A program made the position numbers and the translations under genes. DNA of 64,000 nucleotides from Rhizophagus irregularis (lineage: Eukaryota > Glomeromycota > Glomeromycetes > Glomerales > Glomeraceae): NCBI RefSeq assembly GCF_026210795.1, contig NC_089449.1:2852001-2916000 (forward strand), read 5' to 3'. Shown here piece by piece: positions 20,075 to 50,026 of this stretch; the first letter of the stretch is position 1, and each line of letters begins with the position of its first letter. Below the pieces are notes generated by a model, which saw only the letters and a program-made list of their open reading frames with translations, did no database searches and was not told the DNA's origin.

Positions 20075-22981
20075 TAGTGATCCGATCCTAAATCCGATAA
20101 ATCCGGATAGATCCTATTTTACGGATCCAGCTCGGATATCCTAATCTGAAATTTTAGTACGAATCCGATCCGTTATAAAACGGATGACAGATGGAAGATC
20201 ATCCGGATTAACGGATTGTAATCCATATTAAATTATATAAAAATGTATGATCATCAAATTGATTATCAATATTGGACGTTACATCTTTTTTTCTTAAATC
20301 CTAACAATGTCGCAAGAAGAGAATCAAGAGATTGATAATGAGACTGAATCCCAGGAATTTACATTTATTGAAGCAATAAATAGAATAGATTCAACGGGAA
20401 AAGGTGTATTAAATAGTTGTTCAATTTATTTATTTTATAAATATTAATAAATTGTATTATTACATTTATAAATTTTTTAAAGAAATAAATAAAGAATTAA
20501 ATGCAAATTCTGCAAGTAAAAGAAAAAAATCTTCATTTACAAGACAATATTTTGAAAAGTGTCTCAATTCAAAGGGTGAGGAAGTTCAAGTTTGTAAAAT
20601 CTTAGATGATAACGGCAGTAGATGTGGTCAAGCGTATAGAAATGCTGGATCTTCAACGGGAAATCTCATTGCACACTTACGTGATATTCATCATATTGTT
20701 AACGAGGATGAAGAAAGTGAAAATACTTCCAAAAAATTGAAAAAAGTATGTTTCAAAATTTAAACTTGAAATTATTATTTTATTAAATTAAAAATTAATG
20801 GATTTTTTTAGTTACGAAATACAAAGATTACAGATTTTGCCAAACCTCATCGCTCCCATCCAAAACACATCCAAAAACAACGAGAAGAATCTATGCTTAA
20901 ATGGATGTTAATTACCGATCAACCTATTTCTACAGTTACAAATCCAGCATATAAAGAAAAAATTTCCAATTTTGATCCTTCCTTCATTATACCCGGAGAG
21001 CAAAAAGTCAAAACAATGATATCTAAAAGTTATAATTATAATCGTGAAAACTTAAAGAACCTTCTAAATGAAACGGCTACATCAGTATCTCTTACCACTG
21101 ATCTTTGGTCAAGTAGGGCTAAACATGGATATCTAGGTATTACTGCAACATGGATTACAACAGATTTTAAAATTAGAGATGTAATGTTAGAGATGATGTA
21201 TGCTCCTTCTCCCCATACCGCTAAGAATATTGCTGAATTACTTTACCAATGTATTACGAGTTGGAATCTTGAAGGACGGGTAACAACTATCATTACTGAT
21301 AATGGTTCAAATATGAAAGCAGCATTTCCATTTCTAATTCAGAAAAATAAATGTGAAAGTATTCAAAGACTTCCTTTGTGCGGCACATACTCTTCAGTTA
21401 GCAATTGGGAAAGGATTGGCAGCTGCAGAAATTCTTATTGCACGTGTAAAACGAATAGTCCATTTTTTTTCAACCCAAAGACAGATAGAAAGATTAGAAG
21501 CAACACAATGCAAATTAGGTTATAAAGATATTTTGCATTGTATTCAAGATGTTTCTACCCGATGGAATTCATCTTACTATGCTTGGGATCGACTTTTTTA
21601 TCTCAAAGACGCAATAATTCAACTCCAAGCTGATTTGTGTACTAGTACCAATAGAGATGATAAAAAGGATGGAAATAAACTAAGAAAGATCATGTTATCT
21701 GAGGAAGAATGGGAATTGTTGGACCAATTAGTTGATCTTTTAACACCATTTGAGAGAACAACAAAAGATTTTTCAGGAGGAACTTACGTAACATTTAGCA
21801 ATATGATATCAATTATCAAAGAGCTTATTTTTAATATGACTTGCAGCTTGCCATCAAATAATGTTACTCATCATGATGAGAATACTGTATTTGAATCTGA
21901 AGGTATTGAAGTAACACCTATTGAGGTTGAAGATGAAGAAGTTATAAGTAATATTACAAATAAAAGAATTTCTATTAAAGATCCATTAAATACAGAAGGA
22001 GTTTTGGAAAATGTAAAGGAAAATATTTACAGCTCATTAATTTTTTATTGGGATAAACCAAATGATGCTGGCTTAATTGCATCTTTATTGGACCCTCGCT
22101 ATAAGGAATTGGATTTTGTGGAGTTGGAAGATGATAAAAACAGAATTATTCAAAAGCTCCGGGATGAATTTTCAAATAATTTTCCAAATAAATCACCACA
22201 AGTAATAGAATTCCCTAATGATTCAATTACACCTACTCAAGATACAGAATCTTCATTGCGTTCACATAAAGAATACCGTCAACGCCGCCAAATGAAAATT
22301 AAAAAAGTTGGTCGATTGAATTCGGGTAATAATAATAGTGATGAACTAAATAATTATTTAAACATGCCAGCTGCACTTGAAAAAGAAAATCCATTAGATT
22401 GGTGGCGGGCGCGTGCACAAATTTTTCCAAAATTATCTCAAATTGCTCGTAAATACCTTGGAATACCAGCAACTTCTGTCTCAAGCGAAAGATTATTTTC
22501 ACATGCTAATAATCTAATTACAGTAAAAAGAAAACACGGTTGGATACAGATTTGGCTGGTAAAATGCTTTTCTTGAAGAGAAATCTTAATTCTATGCAAG
22601 TTTTTGCAAAAGAATGGGACGAAGTTGAAGAAATGGTGCAAACCTCATAATGAATAATACATTTTATTTTCTTTTAATGCTTTTATCATTTTACATAATA
22701 AAATTATATTGCATAAAGCTTTTTTTGTTTAAATTGTGTGTTTGTACATTTTTATTTTTGACTTTGAATTTCGAAATTTGAAATTTGAATAAATATTTTT
22801 AATTATAAATAAATTTTCTATAAATAGACTAGGATAGATCCGGATGGATCCTAAATTAAGGATGGATCTGTTAAAGTTCGGATAATCCGCTAAATTTTCG
22901 GATGCGGATTATCATCCGGATTCAGCTGAGGCAATCCGGATTGAATCCGGATGGCTTTTCAGGTATAGGATCGGATTACTA
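20075..22981 (+). mobile_element. hAT-superfamily DNA transposon (2.9 kb), inactive
   Basis: Inverted ends TAGTGATCCGATCCTA and (complement) TAGTAATCCGATCCTA, flanked by a perfect 8-bp target duplication gtgttctg (20,067-20,074 and 22,982-22,989). Subterminal regions are dense in 'atccggat' motifs, which transposases of this superfamily often bind. Encodes one BED-type transposase on the plus strand, damaged by two frameshifts. Confidence 0.93.
20307..22650 (+). pseudogene. hAT transposase with BED zinc finger, two frameshifts
   Basis: Starts at the ATG at 20,307. Likely introns near 20,405-20,480 and 20,747-20,812. A BED finger is visible around 20,590-20,695 (VCKILDDNGSRCG...LIAHLRDIHH). 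The RNase H-like core follows: SLTTDLWSSRAKHGYLGIT and ITDNGSNMKAA hold the first two acidic positions. One extra T near 21,374 shifts the frame just before CAAHTLQLAIGKGL. The C-terminal dimerisation region is well kept (DWWRARAQIFPKLSQIARKY, then IPATSVSSERLFSHANN). A second frameshift lies near 22,535, after which the frame ends at 22,650. Only two indels in 2.3 kb imply a recently active copy. Confidence 0.92.
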
Positions 22982-31512: not shown

Positions 31513-31909
31513 TCATGTATTAATAATACAATTGCCAGTTTTCATAATAAAAAATATCATGAATTACAGGTCTCTTTGATTTTCCTCCACCCATTGTTGT
31601 TCCTCCAAAAAATAATTGTACCTAAATAATAATTAAAATATCATTTACAAATTATTTTATAATTCCTTTTTATTTATTATTAATCATTAATAAAACTTTA
31701 CCTATTGATGATCTTTCTTTTCTATACTTAATGTTGAAAAGTGTCACAATACCATTCCCTTTTGTTTTAAATCTTGCATAAACTGAGATACATGTTGAGA
31801 AAATACATGCATATATGGTGTAACTTCTGTGCGCAAATATATTTCTTATTAGCACTATTCATGATATAAATGGTAGAACAGTAAAAATTCATCGGGAAAT
31901 TTTTTAAGA

Positions 31910-32185
31910 TGCAGAACTGCAGAGATCTGTAAAATTAGCAGATCTCCGCATTTTTTTTGTGAATTTATGCAGAAGTCTGCGATTTTGCAGATTTTCACTT
32001 TTTATTTTTTACAAAGTTATGCAATAATCTGCAATTTTGCATATTTCCGATTTTTTATGTATGCATTTCTGTGGAAAGTCTGCGATTCTGCTTTTTTTTA
32101 TGTGAAATTTATGCGAAAGTCTACAATTTTGCAGATTTTTGCTTTTTTTTCATTAAAATATCAGTTTGATCTGCAATTTTATCAT
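31910..32185. repeat. Subterminal 'tctgca' repeat cluster
   Basis: Five or more imperfect repeats of a 60-75-bp motif built on 'atgcagaagtctgcgatttt', alternating with T-runs. A mirrored cluster lies at 38,240-38,425 ('atctgcacagat'). Together they flank the array symmetrically. Confidence 0.7.
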
Positions 32186-32904
32186 TGATTTAATATTTAA
32201 ACTTTAATTAACTCTAACTTGATTTAATACCTAAATGATTTTTTCTACAATACTCTTTAAAAAAAAAAACTTTACAAGACTTTAAAAAAATAATTTTTTC
32301 TACAACACTTATTACTAAAAAAAAAAACTTTGTGAAATAATTTTTTCTACAACACCTTTCAGGAAATAATCTGTTAAAGATTCCAAAGAAAAAATATTTC
32401 TATTATTTTTTAAGCTTTGAAACTTATCAGAGAAATTTTTTTTTTAAAAAAAAAAATTTATTTGTAAGGTTCGGAGTCTTTAAGGCAAATTTGTCCAACA
32501 TTCAGCACATAATCTGCAACATGCAGGGAAATCAGAACTAAAAAAGGAGTCGTATTCCTTTTTTTTCTTCTTTGAAAAAAAAAAATTTTTTTTAATAAAT
32601 GTCAGTTAACGTTCAGTTTATAAGTCAAGAACATAATAGAGCTTATTGTTAATTTTAATTTGGAGGTATATCACCTCTGAAACTTTAATTATTTTTAGAG
32701 AAAAAAAAATTTTTTTTATATTATATAGGTTCCAGATGGAACCTATCGATGATTTAGTTTGGAATTCAAAGGTATGCTTACCTCTGAAATTTAATTTATT
32801 TTTTAAAAAAAAAAAAATTTTTTTTTATATTATATAGGTTCTGGATGGAACTTCATCGATTTTAGTTGGAATTTTCAGTTGGAATTGCGGTATCTTCGCA
32901 TTTA

Positions 32905-32966
<62 letters not shown>

Positions 32967-33846
32967 ATTTTTTTAAAAAAATATTTTTTTTATATATATA
33001 GGTTCTGGATAGAACCTATCAAATCGAAAGATATTGGAATTCGAAGGTATGCTTACTTCCGAATCTTAATTAATTTTTTTAATATTATATAGGTTCCAGA
33101 TAGAACCTATCAAAGATATTGGAATTTGGAGGTATATTAACTTCCGAATCTTAATTTATTTTTTTAAAAAAAAAATTTTTTTTTATATTATATAGGTTCT
33201 GGATGGAACCTATCGATGATTTTAGTTTGAATTTGGAGGTATATTAACTTCCGAATTTTTAATATATTTTAAAAAAAAAATAATAATTTTTTATTATATT
33301 ATATAGGTTTTGGATGGAACCTATCGATGATTTTAGTTGGAATTCGGAGGTATGCTTACCTCCGAAATTTAATTTATTTTTTTTAAAATAAAATAATTTT
33401 TTTTTATATTATATAGGTTCCAGATGGAACCTATCGATGATTTAGTTTGGAATTCAGAGGTATGCTTACCTCCGAATCTTAATTTATTTTTTTAAAAAAA
33501 TAATTTTTTTTATATATTATATAGGTTCTGGATGGAACCTATCAAAGATATTGGAATTCAGAGGTATGTTTACCTCCGAATCTTAATTTATTTTTTTAAA
33601 AAAAAAATTTTTTTTTATATTATATAGGTTCCAGATAGAACCTATCAAAGATATTGGAATTCAGAGGTATGCTTACCTCCGAATCTTAATTAATTTTTTT
33701 AAAAAAAATAATTTTTTTTATATATTATATAGGTTCCAGATGGAACCTATCAAAGATATTGGAATTCAGAGGTATGCTTACCTCTGAATCTTAATTTATT
33801 TTTTTTAAAAAAAAAATTTTTTTTATATATTATATAAGTTCTGGAT

Positions 33847-34249
33847 TATACATGTTGCCGAAATATTTCGGCTATTTCGCCCACGTGACAAACTCTTCAA
33901 AGCAAGATCATCTGATTTCATAGATTTGGCTGAAATTAGGCTTCAAATAGGTTAATCTGGGTCTGAAGAATCTATGAAAGAACTTTTGAGGAATTTCGAC
34001 CAACTTACATAATTTCGGCAGGGCTCTGGAATTTCGGACAACATATATTTAATATATGGCCAAAACTTTAAAGTCCGATTTGAAATTATTGCAGATTATG
34101 CCGAAATTTTCTGAAGTCTGCCAAAAGTTGCTGCAGATCTGGCCCAAATTATCTGAGGTTTAAAAAATTTTATTGATATATCTACAAGTAGCTATATTTT
34201 GGTGCCGAAATGCGGCCAAAATTGAAAAAAAGTTTCGGCAACATGTATA
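33847..34249. mobile_element. hAT-like MITE (TATACATGTTGCCGAAA) inside array A
   Basis: 403 bp with ends TATACATGTTGCCGAAA and TTTCGGCAACATGTATA, flanked by a perfect 8-bp duplication ttctggat (33,839-33,846 and 34,250-34,257) made from the array's own repeat block. Non-coding; interior has 'gccgaaat' motifs shared in style with the TAAGGTTGCTTGCC family. Confidence 0.9.
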
Positions 34250-34474
34250 TTCTGGATGGAACCTATCAAAGTTATTGGAATTCGGAGGTATGCTTACCTC
34301 TGAATCTTAATTTATTTTTTAAAAAAAAAAATAATTTTTTTTTATATATTATATAAGTTCCAGATGGAACCTATCAAAGTTATTGGAATTCGGAGGTATA
34401 CTTACCTCTGAATCTTAATTTATTTTTTTAAAAAAAAAATATTTTTTTTTATATATAATATAGGTTCCGGATAG

Positions 34475-34696
34475 AGATAAACATAGCTTGAGCTTGAATT
34501 TTATTAATTAATGCCGAAGTGACTTTAGAGAACAACAGAGTGATCTAAAAAACACCGCAACAAGTGCAGAACTAATAGAAAACAAAAAACAAATAATCTT
34601 CCAAAATTACATATAAGAAAAGCTAAGATTATAAACCCCACCCTCTCTATATAAATAATTACAGCTACTCCCCCAAATCTATTTCAAAATGAGTAA
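34475..34696. mobile_element. 222-bp retroposon-like insertion with 15-bp target duplication
   Basis: The array sequence ataggttccggatag is present on both sides (34,460-34,474 and 34,697-34,711). A 15-bp duplication and the absence of inverted ends fit target-primed retroposition (SINE or 5'-truncated LINE). The inserted sequence has no ORF of note. Its identity is unknown. Confidence 0.7.
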
Positions 34697-35031
34697 ATAG
34701 GTTCCGGATAGAATCTATCAAAGATATTGGAATTCAGAGGTATACTTACCTCTGAATCTTAATTAATTTTTTTTTAAAAAAAATAATTTTTTTTATATAT
34801 TATATAGGTTCTGGATGGAACCTATCAAAGATATTGGAATTCAGAGGTATGCTTACCTCCGAATCTTAATTTATTTTTTTTAAAAAAAAATAATTTTTTT
34901 TTATATTATATAGGTTCCAGATGGAACCTAGATGGAATCTATCGATGATTTTGAAATTCAGAGGTATATTAACTTCTGAATCTTTAATTTTATTTAACAA
35001 ACGTCACTAATATTCGTTTTCATATTTTTAG

Positions 35032-36880
35032 GTCTTGGATGCTAAAGATCAGCTCTGGACTTTTATTTCGAAGGTAAAAATCTTCAAAATATTTTTTTTT
35101 ATATTTTAACTTTAACGAACGTTAGTTACGTTCATTTTTGTATTTTATAGGTTCTGACGCCAAAAAATGGCTCCGGACTTTACTTTGAAGGTAAAACTTT
35201 CGAAAAAAAAATATTTTGTTTTATTAACTTTATTGACGAACGTTAACTAACGTTTCGTCTTATTTTTTTTTAGATAAAGGAAGCCGAAACTGAGTTCTGG
35301 GCTCCTATATCAAAGGTAAAACAAACCTTCAAAAAAAAAATTAATTTTTTTTAAAATTAATTTATATTGACGAACGTTAACTAACATTTCATCTTTTTTT
35401 AGTTAAAGGAAGCTGAAAGACAAACCGGACTTCCATATCGAAGGTAAAACCTTCAAAAAAAATATATATATATATTTTTAACTTTATTGACGAACGTTAA
35501 CAACGTTTGTATTTCTTTTTTTTTAGGTAAAGGAATCCGAAAACGAGTTCCGGGCTCCTATATCGAAGGTAAATTTAACCTTCAAATTTTTTTTTCTTTT
35601 TATTTAAATGAACATTCACTAACGTTCGTTATTCTTTTTTTTAGGTAAAGGAAGCCGAAAGAACTTCCATATCGAAGGTAAAATCTTTGATTTTTTTTTT
35701 ATTATTTTATTTAATGAATGTTACTAATTCTAACGTTCATTTTTTACTTTTCGTAGATACAACCGTACAAGAAACCGAAAGGCAGGTTCCGGTCTCCTAT
35801 TTCAAAGGTAAGGCTTCGAAATTTCATTTTACTTTTTTTCTTTTATTTTAGCGAAACGTTTACTAATGTTTCAGCTTTCTTTTTTGTAAGCCCACGGCTT
35901 TCCAGAGCTTCATTTCAAAGGTTATATCCTTTATATCCTTCAAAAATATATTTTTTTTATTAGTTTTTTTTTATGAACGTTAACTAACGTTCATTTTCAT
36001 TTTTGTAGGTCCAAGACACTGAAGGTACGTATCTCGTACTTGATTTCAAAGGTAAATAACTTTCGAAAAAAAAGGGAGTCTTTTGTTTTAACGAACGTTT
36101 ATTAACGTTCATTTTTCTCTTCTTTATAGGTTTAGGATGCCGAAGGACTTTAATTTCGAAGGTAAACTTCAATTTTATTTTTTATTTTTTATTCTTTTTT
36201 TGTTTATTTTAACGAAACGTTATTAACGTTTCGATTTTTTTTAGGTTTTCGGCTCTCCCGAACTCTTCTGGACTGAATTTCGAAGGTATTTCTTCGAAAT
36301 TCTTTTATTTCTTTATTTTATTTTATTTTTGTAAAAGAACGTTAACGTTCTTTATTCTTTTTTTTAGATTTTTGGCTCTCTGGTTCCAGCCTGAACAGAA
36401 TTTTCAACATGGTTAGTTTCGTAATGAACTTTTCGTTATGAAACTAATTTTTTTTTATATTTTATTTAAACAAAACGTTACTAACGTTTCGATTTCTTTT
36501 TCTTTTTCTGGTAGCCACCTGGATTGGACGGAATTTCGAAGGTGAAATTCAAAATTATTTTATTTTTATTTTTTATTTGAACGAAACGTAGACTAACGTT
36601 TCAATTTTTACTTTTTGCAGGTTTACGGCTTCTGGATGGAATTTCGAAAGTAAAATTCCTTCAAAATTCTTTTATGTTTTTTTTTATTTAGCGAAACGTT
36701 TTCTAACGTTTCATTTTTTTTGTAGGTCATCATCATTCATGAAAAGAATTTTGAAGGTAAAACTTCAAAATTCTTCATTTTTTTTGTTGTTTTTAATTTG
36801 CGAAACGCTTACTAACGTTTCAGTTGGTTTTTTTTTGTAGAATTTTTGTTCTCCGGCTCCTGGACGAAAGAATTTCAAAG
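35032..36880 (+). CDS. Candidate micro-exon gene: up to 16 exons of 27-51 nt
   Basis: Exon-like blocks with AG before and GTAAA/GTATT/GTTA after: 35,032-35,073; 35,151-35,190; 35,274-35,315; 35,403-35,443; 35,527-35,568; 35,645-35,677; 35,757-35,807; 35,891-35,920; 36,009-36,051; 36,130-36,161; 36,245-36,285; 36,368-36,411; 36,515-36,541; 36,621-36,649; 36,726-36,756; 36,841-36,880. The twelve from 35,527 to 36,880 splice into one open frame of 147 codons although their lengths are not all multiples of three. Several end in the peptide ISK (e.g. VKESENEFRAPISK, PTAFQSFISK, LRLLDGISK). Introns are 76-103 nt and all eleven carry a (C/T)TAAC or TAAT branch-like site within a GAACGTT...AACGTTC palindrome. 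Exon 2 (40 nt) and exon 4 (41 nt) break frame unless skipped; the block after 36,880 has a lost acceptor and a TAG. No known domain; start and end of the gene are not identified. Confidence 0.45.
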
Positions 36881-38000
36881 GTAAACTTCGAAATTCTTAT
36901 TTTTTTGTTACTTTAATTTACGAAACATTTACTAACGTTTCAGTTGTTTTTTTTGCGGGGTTTTGGTTCTCTGGCTCCTAGACGAAAGAATTTTGAAGGT
37001 AAACCTTTAAAATTCTTTTTATTTTTTATTTTATTTTTCTTTAACGAACGTTCTACTAACGTTTATTTTTCCTTTATTTTTTAGGTTCCGGCTCCATTTG
37101 AAAGAACTTCGAAGGTATAACACTTAAGGTTGCTTGCCGAAACCTTCTTAATAACTGCCAAACCTATATGGAAAATGCCAAAACTATATTAAATCATATT
37201 AAAAATCCTGCTGAAACTTTGCCGAAATGCCGAAACCCCATTTGCTGAAACTGCTGAAACCCTGCCGAAACTAAGGTTGCTTGCCGAAACCTTCTTAATA
37301 ACTGCCGAAACCTATACGGAAAATGCCGAAACTATATTAAATCATATTAAAAATCCTGCCAAAACTTTGCTGAAATGCCGAAACCCCCATTTGCCGAAAC
37401 TGCTGAAACCCTGCCGAAACTATAGTAAACATATAGTAAAATCTTGCCGAAATTTATCGCAGGATTTTGGAGAGGTTTTGGCAAGTAACCTTAGCCGAAA
37501 CTATAGTAAACATATAGTAAAATCTTGCCGAAATTTATCGCAGGATTTTGGAGAGGTTTTGGCAAGTAACCTTAGCCGAAACTATAGTAAACATATAGTA
37601 AAATCTTGCCGAAATTTATCGCAGGATTTTGGAGAGGTTTTGGCAAGCAACCTTAATAACACTTCAAAGTTTCTTTTTTTTAATTTTCTTTAACGAACGT
37701 TTTACTAACGTTCGTTTTCTTTTATTTTTTAGGTCCCGTCTCTCATTTGAAAGAACTTCGAAGGTAATGACACTTCAAAATTCTTTTTTTTTAATTTTCT
37801 TTAACGAACATTTACTAACGTTCGTTTTTCTTCTATTTTTAGGTCCCAGACTTCCATTTGGAAGAACTTCGAAGGTAATAATACTTTGAAGTTATTTTTT
37901 TTATTTTTCTTTAACAAACGTTTTACTAACGTTCATTTTCTTTATTTTTGAGATCCTGGGATTTCATGTCAAACATTTCGAAAGTAATAACTTCAAAATT
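36881..38000 (+). repeat. Right end of the micro-exon array with decayed units
   Basis: Five more units: about 36,962-37,008 (acceptor changed to GCGGG, TAG inside), 37,086-37,114, 37,733-37,762, 37,843-37,874 and 37,953-37,981. Exon-like blocks end 'aacttcgaag' followed by GTAATA/GTATAA and keep the peptide ending RTSK in some frame. The composite MITE at 37,125-37,655 interrupts one unit. Confidence 0.7.
37125..37655. mobile_element. Composite hAT-like MITE, TAAGGTTGCTTGCC family, internally amplified
   Basis: Perfect 8-bp target duplication ataacact (37,117-37,124 and 37,656-37,663). The 531-bp interior is a partial copy (37,125-37,272) fused to a full copy starting at 37,273. Its last roughly 81 bp ('ccgaaactatagtaaacata...') is repeated three times in tandem (from about 37,414, 37,495 and 37,576). 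The element moved or grew as a unit and is closely related to 8,882-9,103. Confidence 0.9.
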
Positions 38001-39080
38001 TGTAACAAATATCTCTGATTTTCTATTTTGTTTTTTGTTTGTTGGAATCGAACCAACTGGAACAATGTTCCAAACCATTAACAACATGTAAATGTGCAGT
38101 AAAAAGATGATGAATAGCAATAACTAGTAATAGATTTCAATTGTATTTGTAAACTTGTTAATATATAATAAAAAAGTAATTTTGATTATACAAATAAATT
38201 AGTAATTAATGCAATAAATTAATTTGTATTATTGTGATGCAGATTTTTACTGAAAAAAATTGCTGAGATATTTCGAAGGTTTTTTATTTAAAAATCTGCG
38301 CAGAACTTTGTTATTTATAAAATCTGCACAGTTTTTTATTGGATTTTTCCTCTAATGTTTTGCGCCAGGGTATAAGATCTGTGCAGATATAATTTCTGAA
38401 AATCTGCACAGATCTGCTCCCCAAAAAATTTCCCGATGTTATGGATCCATTGTTTTGCATAATGTTCTGAAAGAGTCAAATCAGGTCAGGTTTGAGGATG
38501 TATTCGAATTCAACCTGACTATAAAAACCAACCTGTACAAATACCTGGATTAATATTTATATGATCAGACCCCCGACCTGACCTGATATAGTTTAACTCC
38601 AGGTCAAATAAGATTTTTAACAAATTTATTTATGATCAGCAAGACAATAGTATATGTATATTGCACGATTTTTACAAAAACAATTCTGATAAGTTTTATT
38701 TAAATTTTTATGATAAAATTATAAAATATAATTCTCATTAAATCCTCCTTACTCCAACCATGACTTCAAATACATATAGGCGTGAATTGTATTTTTTTTG
38801 AGATTGCTTCTTTTTGCTATTATCAAATCAGTTTTGCCAGAAAAAATCTGTTCTACTGGAATACTTATAGCTAAATTAAAAATCATTTTATTGGCTAATA
38901 TTTAATATTTAGTAATGTTAAAAATGAATAAAGTTTTTTTACCTGCAATTACAAGATAATCTCTTGCCATTACTGCTAAGTGTAAATACTCTACTTCATT
39001 TAACTATATATGTTTATTAATGAATTAGTGATATCAAATAAAATAGATTAATTATTATTAAATATATACCTTCTACCACA

Positions 39081-40549: not shown

Positions 40550-41078
40550 GTTAACCGATTCGGTACGTTGAATAGATTAACTATGATTTGCAGTCAGGGA
40601 GATTAAGTACGTTTAACTATGACTGAAATCCAATCAAACAAGACACGCTTAAAATAGGGAGTTCGTTTATAGTGTAAAAGGTTATACTTTATTATAGAAC
40701 TTTATAATTACAAGAATAAGAACTAATAGGAACTAAGGTTAACTAATTCGAACTGAAGGAACTTCCCCATAACGAAGGAAAATACCAACGTTATTTATAT
40801 AAAAGTTACTACATATAAAGATATAATAAATATAATAGATATAATAAATATAAGAAATATAACTAATATAATAAATATAACTAATAAATTAAATATAATA
40901 AATAAAATAATTATATCGATTATATTAAATATAATTAATATAATAAATATAATAGAAATAATAGGCTAAGTAGGCTGCGGCTAGGTCGGCTTGGCACAGT
41001 TGGGCACAGTAGATCCTAATTTTCCACATGATCTTCTGGCGCAGTAAGTTGTAACTCTACACGTGACTAGGGGTAACA
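40550..41078 (-). repeat. 3' LTR (529 bp)
   Basis: Matches 49,495-50,026. Starts GTTAACCGATTC and ends GGGGTAACA on the plus strand. Nearly identical to the other LTR for about 450 bp, but the first 80 bp on the plus strand (U5 end of the element) hold most of the differences. Contains an AT-rich tract of 'aatataataaat' repeats (40,815-40,960). Confidence 0.95.
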
Positions 41079-41096
41079 GGTTCCTCCTCTTAATTT
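41079..41096 (-). promoter_or_regulatory. Polypurine tract
   Basis: In element orientation the sequence directly before the 3' LTR reads AAGAGGAGGAACC, the purine-rich primer for plus-strand DNA synthesis in LTR elements. Confidence 0.75.
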
Positions 41097-41503
41097 GCAG
41101 CTCCTGCGAAAATCAATAAATTATTTCTAAGTTTCCTTATCTGAGGTCTGGTAATTTTCCTAATAACCTGGACGTCTAGTTTCTTCGTCCTTAAGATTTG
41201 TTCCGGAAAAAACTCAAAAATATCAAAAGTCTTTTCTACAATTGTTGCATAATGTAATGACATTTTATGCTTGTATTTCAATCGTTCGCTAGGAGTTGGT
41301 AGTTGGTCTAGGAGTTGTCCTAAATAGAAAGAGTTAATCATCGCCAATTGTGTGTCCTTTAGTCGTATTGACTTCGTTACACTTCTTAGAGTTGCAGAAA
41401 ATTTAACTTGGAAATCTTCTTCTTCCATGTAGGGCGGCGGTGGAAAATTAATTTCTTCTGAAGTAGTTTGTTGAATATCTTCTAATATTTCTGAAAAATC
41501 CAT
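41090..41503 (-). CDS. Small extra ORF between integrase and 3' LTR
   Basis: 137 codons from the ATG at 41,503, sense with the retrotransposon. The product starts acidic (MDFSEILEDIQQTTSEE) and becomes basic and helical at its end (VIRKITRPQIRKLRNN). No recognised domain. Position after pol is where some Ty3/gypsy lineages carry an additional gene, but it lacks signal-peptide or membrane features, so nothing suggests an envelope-like protein. It ends almost at the polypurine tract. Confidence 0.5.
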   Translation of the reverse strand: MDFSEILEDIQQTTSEEINFPPPPYMEEEDFQVKFSATLRSVTKSIRLKDTQLAMINSFYLGQLLDQLPTPSERLKYKHKMSLHYATIVEKTFDIFEFFPEQILRTKKLDVQVIRKITRPQIRKLRNNLLIFAGAAN

Positions 41504-42000
41504 TTTTCTTCAAGCGGTTTAAACTCTTTTGTCAACTTATCCACATCTATATATATGTTTTAAATTTCTGTAGATCGTTTTGCTGATTAGATTTTTGTTT
41601 ATTTCTGATGAGATTTTTGTATTACTCATCATGTTTCACCACATCTATCAGTTATTTTTAGCGCTTAAATTATTTAACCGCGTTTTTCTATTTTAAGATT
41701 ATTTTTCCTTGTTCTAAAAATATCTTCACATTTTTCTAGAACTTTCCAGAAATATTTTCAAAAGTGATTTTTGCGCGTCTTACGCGTCCACATTTTCATA
41801 ATTTTTCGCGTCGTGATTTTTCGTGATATTTTTGTTGTGCCTGATCTTAACGTGTTTTCGCGTCATGCCTATTTCTTATATAAGGTCTAAATTTTTCCCC
41901 TTTCTCTTTTTCTTATCTTCTTGTAAAATCTTTATATTATCCCAAAATTTTCCAAAATTTTCTTTGTCTACCTATCTATCTATCTACCAATCTATCTATC

Positions 42001-42700
42001 ATGACCTGTCGTCGATCTAATACCTCACGTCAGAAATCTCGAGCAAGATTTCAAAGACTTAAAGAAGCACGTAAAATGAAAGTTCGTCAACTTGAAGGTG
42101 GGTATTGTACGCAAGGTTCTTAAGATGTCTCTTGAACGGTATGATTGCCTGTAGACAGGGTTTCGACCTTATATCCGGTTCTTAAAAGGTTGATTTTGCG
42201 CAGCTTGTAGACGGGGTACTTGTACTTCTAGGATATTTAAGTCTTGAAAGGCCTCTACCTGTAGAACTTTTTTTTGTACTATCGACCTTATTCACTTAGT
42301 TTTTAACTAACTTGGAGTGACCATAAATCTCCATTTTTATTTCTAATAGAGGACCTTACGAAAGCTAAGGAAGAAAAAGAAGATCTTCAAGAGAAATTTG
42401 AAAACTTGCTGGAAATGGGGACCCATAAGAATCTCGAGACAGGATTCCAAAATAAAATCTGGGCTGGGGAGCAGCGAAAATTATGGGAGGCCCAAAAATT
42501 AATTATCGACCAGCAGCGAACAATAGAAGGTCTGGAAGAAGGCGTTTGTCAATTAATTTCACATAATATAGGCTTGCAGAAGTAGTAGAGGTCGTGCTGA
42601 AGCAGCATTTGAAGAAGCAAAACAAATGCTTTTTGAAGAATGTAATATAATTTTGTCAAACGGTTCTACTTCTAATCCTAGTTATGAAGAAGTTGATTAA
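42001..42700 (+). CDS. Antisense coiled-coil ORF inside the LTR element, one intron
   Basis: Opposite strand to gag-pol. Exon 1 from ATG 42,001 (MTCRRSNTSRQKSRARFQRL...) to about 42,097. A 252-nt intron follows (GTGGGT donor, 'tttctaatag' acceptor near 42,349) and exon 2 reads EDLTKAKEEKEDLQEKFENL and continues as a Gln/Glu-rich coiled coil. After GLQ at about 42,582 one base shift is needed to continue as SSRGRAEAAFEEAKQMLF, ending at TAA 42,698-42,700. The basic N-terminus plus coiled coil recalls a small bZIP-like or nucleic-acid-binding protein, but no motif is certain. A TATA-like box (cttatataagg at 41,875) precedes it by about 125 bp. Confidence 0.5.
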
Positions 42701-42919
42701 ATAAAAAAAAATTTCTTCTTTCTGATTTTTCCTATAATTTTCTAATAATTTTTGTAATAAATTTTTCATTAAGTTTTTCACAATAAAATTTCTAAAATTT
42801 TTCATCTTTTTAATAAATTTTTCTGGGGCATTGAGTCGCAAATTCATTTTGATCATCTGTAACACTTTGTAAATAAAATTAACTATTTGCCACGAGTTGT
42901 AGATCTTAATCGTGACTAA

Positions 42920-44332
42920 TTATACTACAATTATTGGTTCCCAATTTTGTCGATCGTGATACAATTTTAATAAACTTCCATTTACAGGAGTTCGTAAGAC
43001 TTTTCCATCTATAGTTCGTAATTTGTACGCTCCTTTTTCTCCAACTTGATGAATATAGTATGGTCCTTTCCATTTTGGATTTAGTTTTCCAGTCCATTGC
43101 TTTTCTTTTGCTGCGTCATAATATAAGACTTTATCTCCAATAGAAAATTTTATTTGATGACATAATTTTCTATCATGTCGTTCCTTTTGTTTTTGTTGAG
43201 ATATTTCAATATTTGTCTTAGCTATTTCGATTTCTTGAGGTAGTTGGTCAACTAAATTTTCTATGTGATTTATTAAAGTTGGATTTCCATTATTTTCTAA
43301 TGAATCAGTTGGTAGTTTAGCATCTCGTCCATATAATAAAAAGAAAGGTGCGATTTTTGTAGTCGAATGTTTTGTAGTACGATAAGCAAATAAAATTGGT
43401 GCAATATAATTATCCCAATTATCAATATGATCTGTTGATAATTTTGCTAAAGATTCTGATAAAGTACGATTAAATCTTTCTACAAGTCCATTTGTTTGAG
43501 GGTGGTATGGTGTTGAAAATAAATGTTTTATCTGAAATTTTTCCATTAATTTTTCAATTATTTGATTTCTAAAATGAGTTCCTTGGTCTGATAATATTTT
43601 TGCTGGACATCCATGTCGACAAATTATTTCTTCATAAATAAAAAGTGCAGCTTGTTCTGCAGTAGCTTCTTTTACAGGTCGTGCTTCTGGCCATTTTGTT
43701 AAATAATCCATTGCTGTAATTATATATTTGTTTCCATTTGTAGTTATAGGTAAAGGTCCTACAAAATCTATTCCTATTTGATGAAAAGGACTTTCTACTG
43801 GAATAGGATGTAAAGGTAACTTTGTCTTTTGTTTTCCTCTTCGTTGACAAGAGTCACATGACATGACATAAGCTCTGATGTCATTGTACATTTGTGGCCA
43901 ATAATATCTTGATTGAATTTTGTCAAACATTGTGTCAACTGAAAAATGCGCAGCAGTAGGATCGTTGTGGAACATAAAAAGAACTGGTTCCAATTCATGT
44001 CTTCTAATTACTCGTAGTAAATTATTTTGTCTCTTTTTATCCTTTTTATAAATGAAATTATTTTTGATAATAAAATATACTGATTGTTTTTGAATTTGTT
44101 GTTGTTGTTGGTTATTTAATGTAAAAGGTAATTGATTATATTTTAAATAATTATATATGTTATTGTAATGTTCAATATCCATTTTTGAAAATTTAGGCTG
44201 TCTCGTCACGATGCGGACACTTTCGCTTTCACCTTTTGATACTTTGTTAATTATAATATGTAAAAGAGGTGGACTTTTAGTCCAAATTGGCAATGAAAGG
44301 TTCCAAAGATACTTTGTAAACTGGTAAATCAT
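42920..44332 (-). CDS. Integrase (gypsy type)
   Basis: 470 codons. Zinc-binding H2C2 (HNDPTAAHFSVDTMFD...SCDSCQ) in the first third, then the RNase H-like catalytic core with DDE: IDFVGPLP, LSDQGTHFRNQ and the Glu in LVERFNR. The C-terminal part has SIGDKVLYYD and GKLNPKWKGPY, the GPY/F-type module; no chromodomain is visible. The integrase inserts the cDNA into the host genome. This exon is intact, unlike the rest of pol. A Gln-rich run (QQQQQIQKQ) precedes the zinc domain. Confidence 0.93.
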   Translation of the reverse strand: MIYQFTKYLWNLSLPIWTKSPPLLHIIINKVSKGESESVRIVTRQPKFSKMDIEHYNNIYNYLKYNQLPFTLNNQQQQQIQKQSVYFIIKNNFIYKKDKKRQNNLLRVIRRHELEPVLFMFHNDPTAAHFSVDTMFDKIQSRYYWPQMYNDIRAYVMSCDSCQRRGKQKTKLPLHPIPVESPFHQIGIDFVGPLPITTNGNKYIITAMDYLTKWPEARPVKEATAEQAALFIYEEIICRHGCPAKILSDQGTHFRNQIIEKLMEKFQIKHLFSTPYHPQTNGLVERFNRTLSESLAKLSTDHIDNWDNYIAPILFAYRTTKHSTTKIAPFFLLYGRDAKLPTDSLENNGNPTLINHIENLVDQLPQEIEIAKTNIEISQQKQKERHDRKLCHQIKFSIGDKVLYYDAAKEKQWTGKLNPKWKGPYYIHQVGEKGAYKLRTIDGKVLRTPVNGSLLKLYHDRQNWEPIIVV

Positions 44333-45139
44333 TCATTAATCGTTCGATATATTTAAGATAATTGATATTATTTTCAAGTTGTACTGCTTGAGGTTCTTTC
44401 CACCATTGATTATTAATAAGGAATTTGGGATTCATATCTGGCCTAATTTTTCCTAAAGTGAATCCAATGATACAGTCGTGCATAGTAGTTCCATAAAATA
44501 GATTCTTCTTGCACATCGTACAATATGTATGTACGTGATGATTTTCTGTATCACATTGCCATGGCAACGACTTCCACCATGATTGATTGGTTGACCGGCG
44601 ATTACTTGTTTAATTTTTATATTTTCCAAATACATATTTTCTAGAGCTTGACGGTTCATACCACACATGGTCCAGGCGATATGTTCTTCAATTTTAATCT
44701 GATTTTCTTCTGAATAATCAGAGAATGCATCTCCATAAATTTGTCTTTCCCACGAATTATTATATTCTTCTGTATCAATCGAATAGTTATCTTCATTACA
44801 CTGACAAATAATTTCGTTACAACAACTATATGGTGATGGTGAACGGGCTGGAGGAGGTTGACAAACTTTACAAATACAATCTTCTGGATGAGGTCCATTG
44901 GGGTTGTCAAAATCATATCGAATTCCTGAAACAATATTAATAGGAGAGTTATTTTCAGATCGTTCTTCAATGTAGCTTTGCATATCATATATTAGATTAT
45001 CACAACGATTTAACAAATCAATAGCTCTTTGAGCAGGTCTATCAGTATAATCATCTTCTGAATCTGCATCGTACTCTTCATGTACTGGAGTAGAACTTTC
45101 ATTTACATTAGTTTGTCCTTCTTTTTCAATAGAAATCAT
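44277..45139 (-). CDS. Cys/His-rich spacer between RNase H and integrase
   Basis: Two overlapping open stretches (45,139-44,453 and 44,567-44,277). The first is acidic and carries CICKVCQPPPARSPSPYSCC followed by ICQC; the second has HTYCTMCKKN, which looks like a further zinc-binding knuckle. In most gypsy elements RNase H leads directly into the integrase zinc domain, so this roughly 290-residue insert is unusual. It could be part of a single pol polyprotein broken by frameshifts at about 45,180 and 44,560. Confidence 0.6.
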
Positions 45140-45146
45140 GAAACAA

Positions 45147-46868
45147 CTAAGAAAGTTTGGCTATCTTCTTCAAACATTCTAGATAATGCATCTGCATTTG
45201 CGTTCGTTTTCCTGCTCGATGCTTAATATTAAAGTCATACTGTTGAAGGTCCATGACCCATCTCGCACGGCGACCTTTTGGGATTTTGGATGTCTTTAAC
45301 CATTTTAGAGCAGAATGGTCAGTAACAATTGTGAAAGGTTTTAATCCTAAGTAATGTTGGAAATGTTTGATAGCCCACACTATCGCAAGACATTCCTGGT
45401 CAGTTATAGGGTAATTACACTCAGCCTTATTCAAAGATCTGCTGGCATAAGCGACTACATGTTCTTTTCCATCCTCTCTTATTTGTGATAACACAGCACC
45501 AAGTCCAGTTCCAGATGCGTCTGTATGGATAATGAAAGGTTGTTCAAAGTCAGGATATGTTAAGATTGGAGATTTAATTAATCTTTCCTTCAAATAATCA
45601 AATGCAGTTTGTTGTTTCTCAGTCCAATGAAAAGGAGTTTCCTTCTTTAAAAGTAATAACATTGGTTTGGCTATTTTTGAGAAATCTTTGATGAACTTTC
45701 GATAGTAAGAGAATAAGCCTAATGCTGAGCGAAGTTGTGTTAGATTTGTTGGAACCGGAAAGGTTCTAATTTTTTCAATTTTTTCTGGATCAGGTCGGAT
45801 ACCTTCTCGTCCTACTACATGTCCTAGGAAATGAATATTTCCGAGGCAGAAATAACATTTCTTAAGTTTAATCTTCAAATTTGCTCGTCTAAGAGTCTCA
45901 AATACTTGTCTAAGATGGTCCAAGTGTTGCTCCAAGGTTCCTTTTGAGTAGATGATTACATCATCTAAATATACTGCTACAAATTTCCCTAGATACTCCT
46001 GGAGTATTTTATTCATTAATCGTTGAAAAGTTCCAGGCGCATAAGCTAAACCAAAGGGCATTACTAGAAATTCATATAATCCAAAGGGAGTAATGAAGGC
46101 AGTTTTCTCCACATCTGCTGGATCCATAGCTACTTGCCAATAACCACTGGCTAAATCTAATGTGGTAAACCATGTTGCATTACTAAAAGATTCAAGCATA
46201 TCATCAATTCGAGGCAATGGGTAAGCATCTGCTTTGGTGACAGCATTCAATTTTCGATAGTCTATGCATAAACGTTTTTCTCCTCCTTTTTTATCAACAA
46301 TTACCACAGGTGAAGCCCAAGGGCTAGCTGATTTTCTTATAAGTCCTTGACTTTCCATTCTTGTGATTTCTCCTTGTAAAAATTCTCTATATTTAGGATT
46401 ACATCGATAGGGTGGTTGAGAGATAGGAGTAGCATCTTTTGTAATAATTTTGTGCTTAATTACATTTGTTTTTCCAATTTCTGTTTGGCTTTTAGCACAA
46501 ATATCTGCATAGTCACTCAAGAGTTGTTGAAATTGGCTTTGTTGATGGTAGTCTAACGGTCCTAAATGTAAGTCTGGATTGACTTTTTCTTCACTATATA
46601 CTTCTGCTTGAGCTAAATAAATGGCAGGATTTGATTCTTCCAATTCTTCATCTTCATTATTTTGGTGGGCAGGAGATACTTCATTTTCCCATGGGTTAAA
46701 TTCAAGGGATTCTTCTGTTGAATAACCAGAAAAATCAGACATATAGATTTGAGCTTCTTCTAACTCTTCAGACTCATATTCCTCTTCGTCATCATACTCA
46801 AATGATTGCTTCATTTTAATAGGTTTTGGAAGAGTAAAAATCACAGGGGACTGTTGTGGATCGTCCAT
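45147..46868 (-). CDS. Reverse transcriptase and RNase H
   Basis: 573 codons. RT motifs in order: GLIRKSASPWASPVVIVDKK, RLCIDYRKLNAVT, PLPRIDDML, TLDLASGYWQ, FLVMPFGLAYAPGTFQRLMN, and the catalytic YLDDVIIYS. Then LGHVVGREGIRPDPEKI and RNase H with HTDASGTGLGAVLSQ, ITDQECLAIVWAIKHFQHYL and VTDHSALKWL. The frame is lost near 45,190, just where the family motif ADALSR is expected in another frame. An acidic N-terminal extension (about 46,600-46,780) links it to the protease. Copies RNA into DNA in the particle. Confidence 0.95.
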   Translation of the reverse strand: MDDPQQSPVIFTLPKPIKMKQSFEYDDEEEYESEELEEAQIYMSDFSGYSTEESLEFNPWENEVSPAHQNNEDEELEESNPAIYLAQAEVYSEEKVNPDLHLGPLDYHQQSQFQQLLSDYADICAKSQTEIGKTNVIKHKIITKDATPISQPPYRCNPKYREFLQGEITRMESQGLIRKSASPWASPVVIVDKKGGEKRLCIDYRKLNAVTKADAYPLPRIDDMLESFSNATWFTTLDLASGYWQVAMDPADVEKTAFITPFGLYEFLVMPFGLAYAPGTFQRLMNKILQEYLGKFVAVYLDDVIIYSKGTLEQHLDHLRQVFETLRRANLKIKLKKCYFCLGNIHFLGHVVGREGIRPDPEKIEKIRTFPVPTNLTQLRSALGLFSYYRKFIKDFSKIAKPMLLLLKKETPFHWTEKQQTAFDYLKERLIKSPILTYPDFEQPFIIHTDASGTGLGAVLSQIREDGKEHVVAYASRSLNKAECNYPITDQECLAIVWAIKHFQHYLGLKPFTIVTDHSALKWLKTSKIPKGRRARWVMDLQQYDFNIKHRAGKRTQMQMHYLECLKKIAKLS

Positions 46869-47479
46869 TGTATCTGATGGTTAGTGTTTTCTTGTCCCAG
46901 TCAAGGGCAGCATTTACCTTTCTCATCCAGTTGTTTCCTAGAATGAAAACACTGTCGCTTGATTCTATGATTTGAACATTGGTTTTAATAATTAAATTTC
47001 TGACTTTTAGGGGTAAATTTTGGATTTCTCCCAATGATCTAACTCTAGTTCCATTGGCAGTTTTAATTACATATTCTGAGGGTCCATCGATAGTTAAATT
47101 CAAAGTTTTCATCATGGCAGTTGTCATAATACTAACTGCAGCTCCACTATCAATTACTGCAATAACTGGTTGTTGATTGATATGAAATTCACATTTAGCA
47201 GCGGTAGTAGGAGTTTCTTCTTGAGTTGGAGTCTCCATAGTAACTTTCTCCAATATAATTGTTATTGTCAACCTTTTCACGTTTTCTCCTCATACTTTGA
47301 ATTAATCCTTTCCTGTAAACAGGAAGTTGAGCTGTAGCTTGACCAATAGATAGACCACAAGGTAGGTCACTAATATATTTAGCTATGTCAAATTCATTGA
47401 CATTTTCAATAGGTGCGGGGACCATTTTGGTTCTTACTTTTCTTTTTGTTGAAGGTTCTGCTGTAGCATCCATATCCAT
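46850..47479 (-). CDS. Retroviral-type aspartic protease region
   Basis: The active site VIDSGAAVSIM lies at about 47,160, followed by the family's ILGNNWM motif near 46,930. Two frames carry it: 47,479-47,195 (linker SIGQATAQLPVYRKGLIQSM) and 47,280-46,816 (protease), joined by a frame change near 47,280. A second frame change at about 46,840-46,868 leads into RT. The protease matures Gag-Pol; this copy would need frameshifting at two places. Confidence 0.85.
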
Positions 47480-47493
47480 AGGTGTAGAAGGAG

Positions 47494-49271
47494 TTACTGG
47501 AGGAATAGGTTGGGTACGTAATTGGTCTTCCTTTCGAGATTCTGAAAATCTTGTTCTTTTTCCTCTAGGAGAAGATATCTCATATGGAACAGATCTAGAA
47601 CGAGTTGTAACATATGCTTCATATTCGTCTTCTTCTTCCCATTCTTCCTCATATTCATCCTCATATTCATCATAGTAAATTTCTGCTTCATCATCTGCAT
47701 AATTAATAGGTGTAACTGGTCGCTTTTGACGAGGCGATTATTATTATTATTATTACCATTAATATTTCCATTATTGGTATTTCTTCCCATTTGGCAGTTT
47801 CTGGAAATATGTCCTATATTTCCACATCTAAAACAAGTAATATTTGGATTGAAGGAATTCTGAGTAGGAGCTTGGCCATTTTGACGATTTTGATAGTTAT
47901 TATTATTAGGCGCCGGTCTGGTATTTCGAGTGCTTTGTTGAACCATTAGAACTGATGAAAGATTTGCATAATTAAGAGCGAGTTGTTGCATTTGTTTTGT
48001 TAATGCTTCCATTTCATCTACTTGTGGAGTTGGTTTAACAGTAGTAGTAGTAGCAGTTGGAATAGGTTCTGTAGTACTAGTAGTTACTGGTGCTGTAGTT
48101 AGAAGAGTAGTATTTACACCTAATTCTACTAACTTAGCTCTCGGGTAATAGTTGCTTCCAAAGTATCAGTATTTCCAATTACTACCTGTCCAACTAAGAA
48201 GGACTTGAGACCATTAATATAGTAGTTAATTTGGTATCTTGCGGCTAAAGCTTCCCCTTGGGTGGCTTTATTTAACAGCTTCTTAAAACGTCGGGAGTAA
48301 TTTTCTACTGATTCATTGTCTCCTTGTTTAATATTTTGCAGTTCTCTGGTCCACTGATTCCTTCGAGCAGCAGTTGCAAAGTAGTTTAAAAATTGGGTAT
48401 CAAAGTTATTTGCATTGTTATCTACATGCCATTGGTTGATATTTCCTCTATTCTCTTCATACCAATCTCGGGCAGCTTCCTTAAGAAATCCAGCGGCTAA
48501 AGCAATTTTTCGATTATCTGGCCATCCATTAGCTGCAAAGGCAGCTTCAAAGAGTCGACACCATTCATATGGATCCTCATCATCACGTCCATAGAAAAAG
48601 GGAACATCAACAACTTTAGATGTTGTACGATTTTGGTTGGCAGTTGTAAGAGCATTAATGGCATTAAGATTATTTTGTAATGCAGTAGTAATGGCATTTG
48701 TATTGTTATTCAAAGTATTTTCCAAAAGGTTTCCAACATTTCTGGGATTAGCATTATCTATTGGGTCAGCTTCCCAAACTAACTTCATAAGATCTTTCAT
48801 CTGACCTTCATTCATGTTGGCGTTATTATTTACTGGCGTATTATGAAAAATTCGGTATGCGTTGGTTACTTGAGTATCAGTTGGTAAACTCTTGAATCCG
48901 TTTGTTAATTCAAATAATTTATGTAAATAAAAGGATAATTCTAATAAAGGAGTATTTATTTGTCGAAACTTTATACTTTGTAGGATCTTAGTAGTTATTC
49001 CGACAAGTGTATTGAGTTGTGTAGTTATGAAGAATTCAGTTTTTAATACTTTAAAAGCGGCTACTGTTGCTCCAGTATATTGTTTTGCTGTATACTGAAT
49101 AGAAATCCAGAGCCAAAATTTCTCAAATCCGTCAGGGATATTGTCAGCTGGAATAGAATCTGTTGGGTAACACTGAATACAGTAAACTTCTTTTTGGTTG
49201 ATCGCTCTTCCTCTACGATGTTTTCTTTGATGTGATTTTAATTCTGCTTTAGATAAATTGTAAAAGGGCAT
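47494..49271 (-). pseudogene. Gag with zinc knuckle, broken by frameshifts
   Basis: N-terminal ORF 49,271-48,129 has the Ty3/gypsy capsid region (FFYGRDDEDPYEWCRLFEAA, AAGFLKEAARDWYEE, ESVENYSRRFKKLLNKA). A frame change at about 48,140 leads to 48,012-47,740, which holds a CCHC zinc knuckle (CFRCGNIGHISRNC) and an Asn-rich run. A further shift in the Asn-rich tract (about 47,740) leads into the acidic linker before the protease. The knuckle packages the element's RNA. Confidence 0.88.
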
Positions 49272-49293
49272 TCAATTTCAAAATTCAAATTGT

Positions 49294-49441
49294 TGCAAGT
49301 ACGTCTGCTAATATCTCAAGTACGTCTGAGAAAGTAAATTTCGTTTGCAAGTGCGTCTGCAAATATCTCAAGTTCGTCTGAGAAAAGAATTACGTCTGCA
49401 AGTTCGTCTGCAAGTATTCTCAAGTTCGTCTGAGAAAAGAA
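49294..49441. repeat. Short tandem repeats in the 5' leader
   Basis: About three units of roughly 50 bp built from 'gcaagtncgtctgcaa' and 'atctcaagttcgtctgaga' between the PBS and gag. The alternation of related 'cgtctg' motifs could fold in the RNA and might be a packaging or dimerisation signal; that role is inferred. Confidence 0.8.
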
Positions 49442-49473
49442 ATCAATTGTTAATTCACAGTATAGCCTTTTAC

Positions 49474-49494
49474 CTCCGGCAGGAATCACCACTC
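49474..49494 (-). promoter_or_regulatory. Primer-binding site
   Basis: In element orientation, a few bases after the 5' LTR, the sequence reads TGGTGATTCCTGCCGGAGG. The initial TGG complements the CCA end of a tRNA. I cannot name the tRNA. Confidence 0.65.
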
Positions 49495-50026
49495 GTTAAC
49501 CGATTCAAGTACGTCGAATAGATTAACTACGATTTGCAGTCAGGGTAGACAAGTACGTTTAACTAGACGACTGAAATCCAATCAAACAAGACACGCTTAA
49601 AATAGGAAGTTCGTTTATAGTGTAAAAGGTTATACTTTATTATAGAACTTTATAATTACAAGAATAAGAACTAATAGGAACTAAGGTTAACTAATTCGAA
49701 CTGAAGGAACTTCCCCATAACGAAGGAAAATACCAACGTTATTTATATAAAAGTTACTACATATAAAGATATAATAAATATAATAGATATAATAAATATA
49801 AGAAATATAACTAATATAATAAATATAACTAATAAATTAAATATAATAAATAAAATAATTATATCGATTATATTAAATATAATTAATATAATAAATATAA
49901 TAGAAATAATAGGCTAAGTAGGCTGCGGCTAGGTCGGCTTGGCACAGTTGGGCACAGTAGATCCTAATTTTCCACATGATCTTCTGGCGCAGTAAGTTGT
50001 AACTCTACACGTGACTAGGGGTAACA
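49495..50026 (-). repeat. 5' LTR (532 bp)
   Basis: Direct repeat of 40,550-41,078; see the 3' LTR. Carries the transcription start region for the element on the minus strand; no TATA box can be named with confidence because the LTR is AT-repeat-rich. Confidence 0.95.

Follow-up and report, generated by a model that had tools for sequence, protein, structure and literature searches.

A tandem array of micro-exon-like units inside a likely non-autonomous Plavaka-type transposon of Rhizophagus irregularis, probably built to be spliced rather than protected as a protein

The array and the element that contains it

The window analysed here is a stretch of 64,000 nt of the Rhizophagus irregularis genome (assembly GCF_026210795.1, contig NC_089449.1, positions 2,852,001 to 2,916,000, forward strand), and all coordinates below count from its first letter. 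At 35,032–36,880 it contains 16 blocks in a row, each preceded by AG and followed by GT, with the 15 introns that separate them measuring 76–103 nt and 11 of the 16 donors starting with GTAAA. A preliminary description of this DNA had read twelve of the blocks (35,527–36,880) as consecutive exons of a micro-exon gene, and their lengths are exactly as given there (42, 33, 51, 30, 43, 32, 41, 44, 27, 29, 31 and 40 nt), as is their joining into 147 codons without a stop in one frame, the other two frames having 4 and 6 stops. A simple segmentation detected 30 exon-like blocks over 32,729–37,983 on the plus strand and none on the minus strand of the same stretch, a count to be read as about 30, since the segmentation overlooks exon 8 of the twelve-exon chain. 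Exon-like blocks in the array are 27–51 nt in size, with short introns between them and all on the plus strand.

The array sits within a 6.5-kb transposable element (31,890–38,438) that ends in inverted repeats of 16 bp, is flanked by a 2-bp target duplication and has the following features:

31,888–31,889, no strand: left target-site duplication TT, equal to the TT after the right end
31,890–31,905, plus strand: left terminal inverted repeat, CATCGGGAAATTTTTT
31,906–32,560, plus strand: left end region, TCTGC/GCAGA repeats close to its terminus; 85–96% identity in 39 other left ends
32,729–34,963, plus strand: array 1, homogeneous units of about 107 bp with 11 detected blocks of 39–50 nt, acceptor ...TATATAG, donor GTAT
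33,847–34,254, no strand: apparent later insertion in array 1, ends ACATGTTGCCGAAA and TTTCGGCAACATGT, borders approximate
35,032–36,880, plus strand: array 2, the 16 blocks of the preliminary description, introns of 76–103 nt
35,891–35,920, plus strand: fourth exon of the twelve-exon chain, its AG at 35,889–35,890 private to the window among 12 copies
36,960–37,983, plus strand: additional blocks after the chain, at 36,960–36,998 (acceptor GG in the window), 37,085–37,114, 37,733–37,763, 37,843–37,874 and 37,953–37,983
37,126–37,653, no strand: later insertion in array 2, ends TAAGGTTGCTTGCC and GGCAAGCAACCTTA, borders approximate
37,990–38,422, plus strand: right end region, with AATAAA at 38,167, 38,193 and 38,213; 91–98% identity in 39 other right ends
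38,423–38,438, plus strand: right terminal inverted repeat, AAAAAATTTCCCGATG
38,439–38,440, no strand: right target-site duplication TT

The insertion in array 1 was placed where copy alignments stop (33,846) and the unit repeat restarts (34,255), and that in array 2 is absent from the close copies, which align up to 37,125–37,135 and restart at 37,654–37,656. Two different short inverted-repeat insertions appear to have entered the arrays of the window copy, and the one at 37,126–37,653 has ATAACACT on both sides. Elsewhere in the window, the stretch 40,721–49,911 has minus-strand ORFs of gag and pol type (42,920–49,271) and the same two rows of tandem repeats at both ends (40,721/49,669 and 40,813/49,761), which suggest long terminal repeats; it is a putative Ty3/gypsy-like LTR retrotransposon. 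Two overlapping ORFs in different frames lie at 20,893–22,576, and these presumably resemble a hAT-type transposase.

Genomic copies and relationship to Plavaka elements

The genome (146.7 Mb, 32 contigs) contains 198 matches to the region 35,500–36,900, with seven full-length copies at 92–100% identity (window included), five at 84–86% and a set near 66%. At least 40 left and at least 40 right ends pair into at least 29 elements of 3.3–19 kb, the window's included, when the two ends are required to be on the same strand and within 25 kb, leaving 11 left and 11 right ends unpaired; these element and end counts are lower bounds, since only the best-scoring candidates were taken. Among the first 20 ten-kb loci, those with two ends align from about 31,890 to 38,438 and end there, and the 2-bp duplication is exact in 11 of 14 copies (window included), with a sequence that varies. 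Three of the loci (L020, L022 and L023) are without the left end, and L022 and L023 without the right end too, while L020 retains a 93-bp right-end match. All three hold pieces of the array and have right-end-like sequences such as AAAAAATTTACCAATA beside TCTGC/GCAGA motifs, so several Plavaka-like families may carry the array.

The exact pattern CATCGGGAAATTTTTTGGG is found at 46 places, some of which face each other about 6.4 kb apart. Two such elements, L030 and L031 (97% alike), carry CATCGGGAAATTTTTT, and their ends match those of the window element at 92–93% over 76 bp on the left and 75–76% over 163–164 bp on the right. Both contain pieces of the Plavaka transposase PF18759 (39.6 bits in L030 and 88.5 bits in L031, cut-off 26.3), and the micro-exon array is absent from both. 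The longest stop-to-stop ORF of the window element has 166 aa and is located in a later insertion. A larger copy, L029, was considered as a transposase carrier and rejected, as it has no ORF >110 aa.

CACTA elements have a target-site duplication of 2–3 bp. The window element is dispersed in the genome, shares its terminal inverted repeat with a transposase-bearing element, has a 2-bp target duplication and carries no transposase of its own, as judged from ORF length in the window element and L029. Because L030 and L031, with the same ends, encode pieces of Plavaka transposase, the window copy is best read as a non-autonomous Plavaka (CACTA/CMC) element, which resembles these two in its ends, near-terminal sequence and 2-bp duplication, but differs from them by having no long ORF and by carrying the array. 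Plavaka elements are described as particularly prevalent in strain DAOM197198 (PMC11075540).

Splice-type signals on one strand

The longest regular chain of blocks numbers 13 in the element and at most 3 in the nine other tenths of the window, and Markov-resampled versions of the element (n=20) gave a mean of 2.5 blocks with a maximum of 7. On the plus strand of the window element there are 13 occurrences of a CTAAY branch-type motif with a T-rich tract and YAG behind it, against none on the minus strand and about one in shuffles. Using listed branch-type patterns, a motif was present in 12 of the 17 introns of 35,074–37,084, the other five having none by that pattern. The same polarity was seen across the set of 14 elements, where 8–15 combinations of branch motif, T-tract and AG were found per element on the plus strand (shuffled mean 0.3–1.2) and none on the minus strand in 13/14, L029 having seven branch-type matches there; exon-like blocks numbered 16–30 per element on the plus strand, with none on the minus strand in 12/14. 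The signals are present in two different unit types (array 1 and array 2), and the unit number of the arrays differs between copies. The preliminary idea is supported in so far as it describes a micro-exon and intron array in a fungus, amplified from similar exons and bearing intron-like signals.

Units also contain palindromes. In the branch region, palindromes with arms of at least 7 were detected in 8/17 introns versus 0/340 shuffles, and donor palindromes at 6/17 introns versus 2.6% of shuffles. The branch-region palindrome may be either a structure or a by-product of amplification.

The open frame of the window copy

The preliminary description considered a chance run of open exons unlikely. 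When these 12 exons were put in random order, at least one frame stayed open in 15% of 20,000 trials, and among 18 exons a run of at least 12 consecutive open exons arose in 13% of 500 order shuffles, so that the frame is not strongly improbable. Shuffling of letters within exons gave an open frame in only 0.02% of 5,000 trials, and hence it is the exon letters themselves that are stop-poor, with the chain adding little. The longest open run was not in excess over shuffled exon order in any of 14 elements (0.12–1.0 of 60 shuffles were at least as long), a test in which exon 8 was missed in the window and the window run is therefore 9 rather than 12. Exon lengths by remainder modulo three were distributed 162:90:86, with multiples of three in excess, which was given no weight since copies in tandem cannot be treated as independent.

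The 147-codon frame depends on the 30-nt exon 4, and thereby on an acceptor that is private to the window. At this acceptor the window reads gtaag, where all 11 other copies compared (six from the close group, five from the next subfamily) read gtag followed by g; their AG lies one base upstream, giving majority states of 31 nt in the close group and 41 nt in the next subfamily for exon 4. Read with its own acceptor, each of the six close copies has stops in all three frames (minimum stops 2, 3, 3, 3, 4 and 4), and the longest open stretch is 71–115 of 144–148 codons. In the majority states (six rows for the close group, L013 left out), frame 0 is open in both subfamilies if exon 4 is omitted; with exon 4 kept, the longest open stretch is 132/148 codons in the close group (exons 1–12) and 111/118 codons in the next subfamily (exons 1–9), and when all exons are joined there are stops in every frame of both majorities.

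The majority lengths of exons 1–9 are equal in the two subfamilies except for exon 4. Changing block lengths and stops in every frame of orthologous arrays were among the things that the preliminary description named as counting against its gene reading, and both are seen among the copies: three of the six close copies (L010, L012 and L014) alter exon lengths, all six are stopped in every frame, and length constancy is also lost between subfamilies at exon 4. Codon periodicity was absent from the non-CpG columns of the close copies (0.157/0.111/0.138 by codon position), and a synonymous excess was looked for between and within subfamilies and not found. A conserved coding frame, as expected of a micro-exon gene, was thus not found for the array, and the proposal of a conserved protein-coding gene is not supported.

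Decay of close copies

Of 200 singleton changes in the seven close copies, 159 were C>T or G>A, and columns were variable at 61–69% of CpG positions versus 5–13% of others. This decay fits the cytosine methylation of transposons reported in R. irregularis (PMC8647823). Outside CpG, exons and introns vary similarly by base (exon/intron A 0.038/0.034, T 0.023/0.019, C 0.333/0.252 and G 0.252/0.188), with exons somewhat more variable at C and G. Faster change of exons than introns, as seen in raw values from six copies (6.2–11.9% versus 3.2–5.4%), was rejected as largely an effect of base composition and cytosine decay. Splice letters were not clearly protected among the close copies, where the variable non-CpG columns were 1/34 for GT, 5/32 for AG and 2/49 for the branch motif versus 56/1142 for the rest. 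By next base, C-to-T decay over 35,000–37,135 affected 133/220 columns for CG, 45/109 for CA, 32/125 for CC and 37/193 for CT; the raised decay at CA recalls the repeat-induced mutation of other fungi, and ancestral CG sites that lost their G could contribute.

Possible constraint between subfamilies

Over 10 introns, the close group (7 copies) was compared by majority state with the next subfamily (L015–L019, 5 copies), with GT, AG and branch as signal columns, and with palindrome arms, T-tract and donor positions +3 to +6 set apart from the other intron columns. Numbers in these tests are small, come from one pair of subfamilies and treat columns as independent, and with this reading the signal columns differed at 0/37 G/C positions versus 28/122 in other intron columns (p=0.0004) and at 0/53 A/T positions versus 13/411 (p=0.38; combined p=0.001). 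Exons also differed less than other intron columns (G/C 25/186, p=0.044; A/T 1/167, p=0.078; combined p=0.009). When fixed and polymorphic columns were contrasted, the 90 signal columns had 0 fixed and 13 polymorphic versus 64 fixed and 119 polymorphic among 742 other intron columns (p=0.006; by base p=0.034 for G/C and 0.5 for A/T), while the 343 exon columns had 26 fixed and 99 polymorphic (p=0.008; G/C 0.12, A/T 0.02).

No amino-acid constraint was detected in the frame without exon 4, with 8 synonymous to 13 nonsynonymous fixed changes and 41 to 80 polymorphic ones (p=0.80), and the same test on the other two frames gave p=0.62 and 0.43. Signal constraint was not confirmed in L020, a single divergent and decayed copy, in which transversions affected 3/83 signal columns versus 33/769 others (p=1.0, no protection) and transitions 7/83 versus 24/769; L020 also alters several exon lengths. 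On moderate evidence from these alignments, the lineage that moved seems to have retained splicing and, less strongly, exon sequence, but not amino acids.

Public gene models on the copies

The joined peptide of the window has 14 matching proteins in R. irregularis (E 8e-36 to 3e-7), and a second search with one of these gave 22 matches including itself, all named R. irregularis. Overall there were 28 distinct proteins, among which there is no gene model for the window copy itself. Six of the gene models could be spelled exactly from copies by GT-AG introns with 10–17 coding exons, which is a fit to the copy sequence with introns >400 nt split and does not represent annotated exon borders:

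P0005 on L018: 17 coding exons
P0006 on L016 and P0012 on L015: 15 coding exons each
P0009 on L012 and P0010 on L011: 14 coding exons each
P0013 on L014: 10 coding exons

Single exons reach 136–147 nt in four of these six models, and three further pairings of model and copy that were tried gave no match. The models use different blocks, end in different frames and differ in their N-termini, and P0009, P0010 and P0012 end in the counterpart of the window's right end region within their own copies. A Pfam search of five models gave no family at E up to 1. The annotation as a whole is described as having used RNA reads (PMC10234402). Another protein, P0020, is named adhesive plaque matrix protein-like and starts with several copies of the peptide encoded by the array-1 unit (MEPIKDIGI...), and its name may therefore reflect repetitiveness only.

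Interpretation

We consider the feature to be the interior of a non-autonomous Plavaka transposon that was spliced in the transposing lineage, has no maintained protein and is present in copies that decay neutrally, and give this reading a probability of roughly 0.72. The Plavaka transposase from elements with the same terminal repeats would move the window element in trans, and between the ends lie what appear to be tandemly amplified units of intron and micro-exon. A transcript would run from the left end to the right end with its poly(A) signals, and the spliceosome would cut some 20–30 short introns from it, as the signals suggest. The transposing lineage would have kept the splice signals and not the amino-acid content, so that transcript splicing, and not a protein, would be what was maintained, a reading with moderate evidence from two subfamilies. 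Inserted copies, including that of the window, would decay as if neutral, mainly by cytosine loss, which makes the open frame of the window an accident. The array is probably not an ordinary gene, because the compared copies keep no readable protein, and the element is probably built to be spliced and not protected as a protein. More tentatively, and rather doubtful as it stands, the lineage may have been selected to carry tandem efficient introns, with a heavily spliced transcript that codes for nothing and introns that act at the RNA level, e.g. by shielding transcripts from small-RNA silencing or by letting transcribed regions tolerate insertions.

That the transposon carries a true micro-exon protein gene, with active copies that make a variable repeat protein, possibly with exon skipping, and sequenced copies that are mostly dead descendants, seems unlikely to us. 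It would account for the 28 matched R. irregularis proteins, six of them spelled exactly with 10–17 exons, for the frame 0 that is open in both majorities without exon 4 and still open over 132/148 and 111/118 codons with it, for the smaller change of exons than of other intron columns, and for the equal majority lengths of exons 1–9 other than exon 4. Against this stand the lack of codon-level constraint (p=0.80), the phase shift at exon 4 (31 versus 41 nt), the stops in all frames of both majorities when all exons are joined, the altered exon lengths of L020, the C-terminal frame that differs between models, the failure of five models to match a Pfam family and the restriction of all 22 second-search matches to R. 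irregularis. Less probable again is a tandem satellite with no role in splicing, in which the unit palindromes and T-tracts merely resemble splice signals; the palindromes in the branch region (8/17 introns) and at some donors (6/17), the variable unit number and the unprotected signals of L020 agree with it. Against it, the signals keep the correct order and a single strand in 12–13 of 14 elements, are found in two unit types, and show no change between two subfamilies where adjacent columns do differ. The original reading as a normal single-copy gene of the host, split into many tiny exons, draws on the open 147-codon chain, and is hardly credible and was rejected given the dispersed genome copies with terminal inverted repeats and target duplications, the decay without codon pattern and the stops in relatives.

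Comparison with known systems and significance

Like the micro-exon genes of schistosomes, with exons described as 3–81 bp, the array has many short exons in a row, but its introns are 76–103 nt versus up to 5 kb there (PMC10526429), and it lies in a transposon with no protein-level conservation seen. Introners likewise link introns to mobile DNA with terminal inverted repeats and target-site duplications, but are described as entering genes as introns (PMC9860276), whereas here many tandem introns lie inside one large element. SP7-like effectors are also imperfect repeat proteins of R. irregularis, a likeness by description, but are presented as a small family with a signal peptide (PMC11333574). 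Among the papers searched, none joins Rhizophagus irregularis and micro-exon, and functional microexons are said to have been undescribed in filamentous fungi before a Trichoderma case (PMC11121469).

Some models in the public gene sets of R. irregularis are fragments of these elements, a point that matters when the orphan genes of this fungus are counted. If spliced, the elements would offer a natural collection of introns and micro-exons of a density unusual for a fungus, with dozens of variants that suit tests of micro-exon splicing, and they would be an example of a transposon that amplifies its own internal intron-exon units.
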